A DNA stretch of 64,000 bases, from the NCBI GenBank assembly GCA_913020435.1, contig CAJVZZ010000008.1, positions 1 to 64,000 on the forward strand, given 5' to 3'. Origin of the DNA: an uncultured Flavobacteriales bacterium. Its GTDB lineage: Bacteria; Bacteroidota; Bacteroidia; Flavobacteriales_G; Salibacteraceae. This document shows, in pieces, positions 61,152 through 62,642 of this stretch. The notes below the pieces were generated by a model. The model saw nothing but the letters and a program-made list of their open reading frames with translations, was not told the DNA's origin and made no database searches. Both the position numbers and the translations under genes were made by a program. The first letter of the stretch is position 1. Every line of letters begins with the position of its first letter.

Positions 61152-62642
61152 ATGAAAAAATCATTAATCGGAGTTAGTTTGTCTTCTTCTTCTTCTTCTT
61201 CTTCTTCTTCTTCTTACTTACATTTTAAACGGTGTCAATTGATGTATAGGTTGAGCATTAAGCAGTTAAAGTTAATGGAATTTAAAATATCGATTTCTAA
61301 CTATAACGCCAGAAGAAACTCTGCCATAAAAGTTAATATTAAAAATAATTTAGTACCCTTAATTGTATTGGTAACGCTAATGATTTTCGTTCAGACAATA
61401 TATGCTCAGTCTATGGGAATAAGCAGTGGTGCTATAACTCCTGATGCATCATCTATCTTTGAAATGAGAACAACTACCAAGGGATTACTTATTCCTAGAA
61501 TGAAAACAACTGAAAGAGACCTTATCAATTCACCTGCTAATGGTTTGATGATTTACAATACAACAACAAAGCAGTTTAATTTCTATAACGGAAGTTCTTG
61601 GAATATTTTGCTATCATATTCGAATAGCTTTACCTCTGCTACTGCAGGAGCAGACCATTCGACTACTTCAACCGCAGATACGTTGGTTGGTGGAATGACA
61701 GTAACTCCTGGTGCAGGAACTTATGTGGTCCATTTTAATGGTCAATCTGATATTCCTTCAACTAATAGTACAACAACGTTTAATACCGCAACAGCAAAAA
61801 CAGATTTAGATTCAATCTATACAGATATCGTCGCTGTAACAGTAACCGGTACACATGGTCTTACTTTTGGATCTGGGGATACACTTACTGCGGGGGTTTA
61901 TACAATAACAGGAGCCATGTCTATCGCTGGTTCTCTTACTCTAGATGGAGGAGGTAATTCTAATGCTTTATTTATCATGAGGGGTAGCGCAGCATTTAAC
62001 ACATCAGCTGGAACTAACGTTACTTTGATAAACGGAGCCTCGCCTGAAAATATTTATTGGATTGCTCAAAATGCAATTGGCTTGGGGGCTTCAACTGTGA
62101 TTCAAGGAACTCTATTTTCTAATAATGGTGCAATTGCAGTTGGTGCTGCTTGTACAATAACTGGAAGGTTATTAACAAAGGCAGGCGCACTTTCTTTTGG
62201 ACCAGGAACACTTTCATTGCCAACGGATACTTCCTCTATCAATTTTAGATCATTAATTACTTTGATAATGTACACGGCTAGCGGTGCTATCGCGAATACT
62301 GGAGCATCAACCTATACTGGTGATATTGGTACCAATTTAGGCGCTATTACAGCTTTTACTGCTGTAGGTTGCACTGTAAATGGCACAATATATCAAGCGG
62401 GCTTAACTACTTTGGTTACGCGAATTTATCATAAAGCTACATTTAGCCTTTATCAAAACGGAGTACTAATTCCTAATTCTGCTCGAACATTAATAAATTC
62501 ATCAATCATTGATTTACAAGGTATTGCTATCGTTCAGGCTGGAGAAACCATTGAGGTTAAATGGAGGATGGATAAACAGATTTCTGATAATGGTCAAATA
62601 GATATTGGTAATAGAATATTAACCCTAACCGAAGTTAGATAA
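61152..62642 (+). CDS. Ice-binding-like (DUF3494) protein with apparent domain insertion and permutation
   Basis: The 496-residue frame starts MKKSLIGVSL and runs into 11 Ser encoded by a TCT microsatellite. A real signal peptide (LVPLIVLVTLMIFVQTIYAQ) only appears at about residues 67-86, so the true start may be ATG 61242 or 61275. Residues ~88-155 are a tail-fibre-like segment (TPDASSIFEMRTTTKGLLIP). Residues ~157-205 look like the first half of a C1q/TNF-type jelly roll (GAGTYVVHFNGQSD). Residues ~210-360 match the helix and beta-solenoid of the ice-binding DUF3494 fold (AKTDLDSIYTD, SLTLDGGGNSNALFIMRG, SAGTNVTLINGASPENIYW). Residues ~366-415 match the segment normally found at the start of that fold (TGASTYTGDIGTNLGAITAF). 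Residues ~420-496 resemble the rest of the jelly roll (ATFSLYQNGVLIPNSAR). Ice binding is inferred, not shown. Confidence 0.75.
   Translation: MKKSLIGVSLSSSSSSSSSSSYLHFKRCQLMYRLSIKQLKLMEFKISISNYNARRNSAIKVNIKNNLVPLIVLVTLMIFVQTIYAQSMGISSGAITPDASSIFEMRTTTKGLLIPRMKTTERDLINSPANGLMIYNTTTKQFNFYNGSSWNILLSYSNSFTSATAGADHSTTSTADTLVGGMTVTPGAGTYVVHFNGQSDIPSTNSTTTFNTATAKTDLDSIYTDIVAVTVTGTHGLTFGSGDTLTAGVYTITGAMSIAGSLTLDGGGNSNALFIMRGSAAFNTSAGTNVTLINGASPENIYWIAQNAIGLGASTVIQGTLFSNNGAIAVGAACTITGRLLTKAGALSFGPGTLSLPTDTSSINFRSLITLIMYTASGAIANTGASTYTGDIGTNLGAITAFTAVGCTVNGTIYQAGLTTLVTRIYHKATFSLYQNGVLIPNSARTLINSSIIDLQGIAIVQAGETIEVKWRMDKQISDNGQIDIGNRILTLTEVR
61182..61214 (+). repeat. (TCT)11 microsatellite encoding poly-Ser
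   Basis: Eleven perfect TCT codons (Ser11-Ser21 of the longest frame). The unit is three bases, so copy-number change keeps the frame and only alters the N-terminal extension, or the spacing upstream of a later start codon. Confidence 0.95.

Follow-up and report, generated by a model that had tools for sequence, protein, structure and literature searches.

A C1q/TNF-like jelly roll interrupted by a circularly permuted DUF3494 domain in a probably exported Flavobacteriales protein

The window (the whole stretch of DNA analysed here, 64,000 nucleotides from an uncultured Flavobacteriales bacterium of the cold ocean) holds near its 3' end a forward-strand open reading frame for a protein of 496 aa (61152–62642), in which a signal peptide, a stem, half a jelly roll, a helix with a beta-solenoid, a TGDIG block and a second half jelly roll follow one another. 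Translation probably starts at ATG 61275, because the alignment with a homologue of about 60% identity from Flavobacterium sp. ACAM 123 (L013) begins there. It is followed by a hydrophobic stretch that we read as a signal peptide ending in ..QTIYAQ (61275–61409, forward strand), with a predicted cleavage site. On the basis of this signal peptide, the protein is most likely exported; a profile scan of the ORF did not find the T9SS C-terminal sorting domain TIGR04183. Just 5' of the likely start codon lies a TCT repeat of 11 copies (61182–61215), which codes for poly-serine when the long ORF is translated and whose number of serines is identical in a homologue of 94% identity; it is possibly a slippage site with an effect on expression.

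Immediately downstream, a partner gene on the same strand (62700–64000) runs off the window; its homologue in L010 (2701–4320) is 539 aa long, and the encoded protein carries a T9SS type A sorting domain, which was found in two of the three partner proteins scanned. In the close group, the permuted gene has a homologue of this partner as its neighbour; the pair recurs in six further loci, one of which lies in a genome that does not belong to the window's order and where the two members retain 55% and 60% identity. This recurrence suggests that the two genes form a cassette that was possibly transferred as a pair.

The stem (61413–61601, forward strand) corresponds to the GLLIPRM..ANGLMIYNTTTKQFNFYNGSSW module of Bacteroidota fibre proteins and has weak matches to phrog_25721 and phrog_1959 (E about 1e-3, residues 100–178), two families that also match one tail-region protein of phage locus L111. 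Explicit tail-fibre or collagen-like stems are present in some relatives of the permuted protein, and one permuted relative has a long collagen-like stem, as do C1q and BclA. The proposal of a tail-fibre-like stem in the initial annotation is thus borne out by these matches and by these relatives.

The domain inserted between the two half jelly rolls spans residues about 200–427 (61749–62432, forward strand), with limits that follow in part from the low-confidence junctions of the structural model. It belongs to the DUF3494 family, the ORF matching Pfam Ice_binding (PF11999) with an E-value of 3.7e-30 (105.6 bits for a cut-off of 28.7), while the NCBIfam model IBP_CFB (NF045625) yields 44.8 bits over residues 206–344 only, against a whole-protein threshold of >400 bits. 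An AlphaFold model computed with nine natural sequences (mean pLDDT 80, pTM 0.65) and Foldseek comparisons both reveal a helix followed by a triangular beta-solenoid, as in DUF3494/PF11999 proteins. Confidence in this model is low at both junctions and linkers and across the first 19 residues, and mostly 60–89 in the jelly roll. The long alpha-helix occupies residues 212–227 (61785–61832, forward strand; helix 73–88 of the model) and the solenoid coils residues 228–358 (61833–62225, forward strand; Foldseek and phmmer), the model of the latter superposing on the ice-binding protein FfIBP (4nu2) at 1.6 Å over 149 columns. Helix, triangular solenoid and motifs are alike in FfIBP, EfcIBP (6eio), 5uyt, TisAFP and AnpIBP, whereas the window protein has its first coil (the TGDIG block) last and its whole domain inside another domain.

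This displaced block, which is N-terminal in normal DUF3494 domains, lies at residues 362–417 (62235–62402, forward strand). In phmmer searches against PDB sequences, residues 210–353 align with the helix and solenoid of ice-binding proteins, while residues 371–405 align separately with the block at the N-terminus of that PDB chain, hence in swapped order, and such swapped alignments recur when the insert is searched alone. To avoid circularity, a block profile was built exclusively from normally ordered DUF3494 proteins; it matches the window protein at residues 362–416, after the solenoid (44.7 bits, E 4.1e-13). Since the block comes after the solenoid, the window protein is a permuted variant and not an ordinary member of the family. 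Across DUF3494 cases, the block precedes the solenoid in 80 and follows it in 57 (three of which are ordinary tandem proteins), with no clear answer in 14. The circular permutation advanced in the initial annotation therefore stands, both with the full query and with the insert alone, and the structural search that it had proposed places the solenoid among ice-binding proteins and the flanks among C1q/TNF-type folds. A search for a normal domain order, for unpaired flanks and for homologues in which two ordinary domains stand apart found none of these.

The N-terminal half of the jelly roll covers residues 151–199 and ends in ..GMTVTPGAGTYVVHFNGQ (61602–61748, forward strand), and the C-terminal half covers residues 428–496, ATFSLYQNGV..NRILTLTEVR (62433–62639, forward strand), so that the insert would occupy a single loop of the head, between the strands ..YVVHFNGQ and ATFSLYQNG. 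When the insert is removed, the joined flanks match BclA_C (PF18573) in six of 16 relatives, albeit below the curated cut-off (best E-value 1.9e-5; best score 25.0 bits, in a relative, vs. 38). With C-terminal halves alone, two of four match more weakly and the other two have no match. For the window protein itself, neither the joined flanks nor the halves searched singly returned a Pfam match. Moreover, a search of PDB sequences with the joined-flank profile recovered only unrelated designed proteins, which made a comparison of folds necessary. Foldseek then associated the flanks with ExsF, BclA, F-BclA, 4-1BBL, TWEAK and GITRL, with probabilities of 0.97–1.0 for ExsF, F-BclA, 4-1BBL and TWEAK, in a part of the model where confidence is mostly 60–89. 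Finally, the joined-flank profile recovers an uninterrupted jelly roll in 13 Bacteroidia genomes, as a single unbroken match to almost the entire profile. In these relatives, which matched no Pfam family, the jelly roll sits as a head at the C-terminal end of a fibre-like stem; they are natural empty sites. Altogether, the BclA_C matches in relatives, the fold comparison and the uninterrupted homologues agree with the earlier claim that both flanks make up one C1q/TNF-type jelly roll. Its fold, its C-terminal position and the fibre or collagen-like stems of its relatives are those of BclA, ExsF and C1q-TNF heads, from which it differs by the ~228 residues inserted in one loop and by a sequence that falls below the Pfam cut-off.

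Three homologues share this design; they stem from a Fram Strait MAG (94% identity), an ocean MAG and Flavobacterium sp. ACAM 123, all named genomes. A database search for this domain order, which had been put forward as a check, retrieved 45 proteins from about 20 genomes with the succession half jelly roll, solenoid, block, half jelly roll, often in tandem clusters of paralogues; this count includes a few copies of one gene, and the block or the first half is undetected in a few proteins. Because 45 proteins repeat it, the permuted order is no chance event. In the genus group of ACAM 123, 17 of 399 genomes have strong matches to both the block and the second jelly half. Outside this group the permuted design is rare, occurring in two of 42 genomes of the window's order and in three of 395 genomes sampled across the phylum (the window's genome being counted in both cases). 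Carriers of the permuted protein are rich in DUF3494, with Arctic and Antarctic names among them.

At face value, the unusual order might instead reflect the decay of a tandem DUF3494 protein, with loss of the first block and the last solenoid and with ends that are unrelated beta-sandwiches, without any permutation of a domain, and tandem DUF3494 proteins are indeed common in the same genomes. Yet this order is kept without decay in the ~45 proteins from ~20 genomes, and the two flanks are one domain that exists intact elsewhere. Moreover, the linker between solenoid and block is short (2–4 residues in close members, compared to 7, 13 and 20 in three proteins of tandem type), which is what one would expect of a block and a solenoid that make up one unit. 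We consequently deem such decay very improbable.

Crystal structures of normal DUF3494 domains have the coil order b1-b6-b5-b4-b3-b2, in which b1 adjoins b6 (PMC7966756; PMC7277481). The permuted chain would run through the helix, coils 2–6 and then coil 1. Because the N-terminal coil packs on the C-terminal coil in the solved structures, the permutation is expected to leave the fold intact and the coil order continuous. With b1 moved to the end, the chain would wind as one continuous helix from b2 up to b6 and on into b1; its two ends would lie at the same pole, and the permutation would place them where the insert meets the jelly roll. As to its origin, the best match among PDB sequences is 5uyt, from an Antarctic Flavobacteriaceae bacterium, an ice-binding protein with two tandem domains in normal order and no jelly roll. 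Residues 212–415 of the query align with residues 57–266 of its chain, contiguously across its domain boundary, the alignment passing from the helix and solenoid of the first repeat to the block of the second. This is what a tandem ancestry of the permuted domain would predict. The superposition on 5uyt has an rmsd of 17.6 Å, compared to 1.6 Å for the solenoid alone on FfIBP (Foldseek), which is consistent with the block folding back onto its own solenoid. The DUF3494 paralogues in the window's own genome are likewise tandems in normal order. The most likely ancestor of the permuted form is thus a tandem protein of two domains, of which the helix and solenoid of repeat 1 would have been kept together with the block of repeat 2.

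Permuted DUF3494 domains also exist in viruses. The jelly-roll form occurs in five viral contigs (in L115, the block was placed by reading, not by the profile); in one of them, of 310 kb, the permuted gene comes after a tail-fibre-type structural gene, and another holds tail sheath and tape-measure genes. These contigs, some with the permuted gene beside tail genes, could lend credit to the idea that the window protein is a phage tail fibre in a prophage remnant, its design being the phage's and not the bacterium's. Against this, a signal peptide is present in the window protein, the gene at 57612–59162 nearby is glutamate synthase-like, the adjacent gene encodes a T9SS sorting domain, and the clusters of paralogues sit in bacterial genomes; no phage structural gene was found among the few neighbours of the permuted gene that were scanned. 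A prophage origin of the gene is hence hardly credible to us. A viral scan with the joined flanks and a search of phage records with the window protein gave no match.

A second permuted form is carried by phage tail sheaths, namely L123 (3473–6331), L169 (34–2886; order established by reading), L186 (3392–6220; identified as a sheath by similarity to L169) and L187 (3344–6109), with phrog_279 found in all three sheath proteins that were scanned (L123, L169 and L187). In a tree of the solenoid, three sheath cases lie among normal phage DUF3494 domains, and a fully supported branch separates them from the jelly-roll cases. A single origin of all permuted domains was considered and discarded, as a tree test rejects a clade joining jelly-roll and sheath cases (p 2e-5). 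Given this split and this rejection, DUF3494 was most likely permuted at least twice. We also considered whether nesting requires permutation, which L120, L121 and L143 rule out: in these three loci, as read by eye, a normally ordered DUF3494 domain seems to be nested in another phage domain. More generally, the viral loci L116–L190, from many metagenomes, include many phage structural-type proteins with a normally ordered DUF3494 domain.

From a functional perspective, the interpretation that we find fairly probable is that of an exported display protein, in which a permuted DUF3494 domain of tandem origin sits in a jelly-roll head on a stem and acts as a multivalent ice binder. A Sec signal and a tail-fibre-like stem would lead to a head of C1q/TNF/BclA type, and a head trimer, if formed as in relatives, would present three ice-binding faces. 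The protein might then work as an ice adhesin or as a recrystallisation inhibitor, its solenoids held out on the stem. If anchored, it would resemble the Marinomonas primoryensis adhesin (PMC5014055), which bears its ice-binding domain on a stalk and differs by an unrelated Ca-dependent ice-binding fold and a different stalk. Another candidate for the same architecture, the cold-induced 402-residue Flavobacterium protein PL002-1792, was rejected, as its description, with a LIPL48-related domain and about 2% helix, does not suggest this design (PMC13413566).

The fold alone is no proof of ice binding, because phages also carry DUF3494, as do Streptomyces and Rhodococcus from soil and soil actinobacterial plasmids. 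The same permuted and nested architecture could accordingly serve as a receptor-binding head or a general adhesin whose solenoid binds a glycan, a cell surface or a particle. Such a ligand would fit the presence of the domain on these plasmids and in many phage structural proteins (tail sheaths among them) from metagenomes not known to be icy, as well as the resemblance of the stem modules to phage fibre proteins. It fits less well with the nearest named carriers, one a MAG from the Arctic Fram Strait and the other a strain whose collection number is Antarctic, and with the closest solved relatives, all of which are ice-binding or antifreeze proteins or DUF3494 domains. We regard a ligand other than ice as rather unlikely, and a multivalent ice binder as the better reading.

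Among the freely accessible papers that were searched, none was found that joins DUF3494 with circular permutation or with phages, and two papers naming both an ice-binding protein and circular permutation deal, by their titles and abstracts, with other subjects. An extensive Arctic survey of the architectures of DUF3494 proteins contains none of the words permut, jelly, trimer and inserted (PMC9957290). Ice-binding-like genes of Arctic viruses have been recorded as auxiliary genes (PMC11515562). Because dozens of relatives and phages share the design, our results suggest that a permuted insert in a jelly-roll head is a recurring mode of display and no accident. Beyond this, we tentatively propose, at somewhat less than even chances, that DUF3494 is naturally permutable and was permuted at least twice (once in the C1q-like heads of bacteria and phages, and at least once in the sheaths of contractile phage tails), that its permuted form is a plug-in display domain which gives bacterial fibres, and possibly virions, a multivalent surface for ice binding, and that the ordinary coil order may itself be permuted from a continuous helix. 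The published b1-b6-b5-b4-b3-b2 order looks irregular, and a natural counterpart whose order would be continuous makes this puzzle of the DUF3494 fold testable. The permuted domain also provides a native way to lodge an ice-binding domain in a loop, with its two ends together, which is directly useful in the construction of multivalent ice binders. Lastly, it connects the ice-binding proteins of bacteria to the tail proteins of phages and raises the question of what use phages make of them. On L113 (4779–5894) and L114, a permuted jelly-roll protein is located next to collagen-like repeats and to small proteins that are jelly-roll-like.
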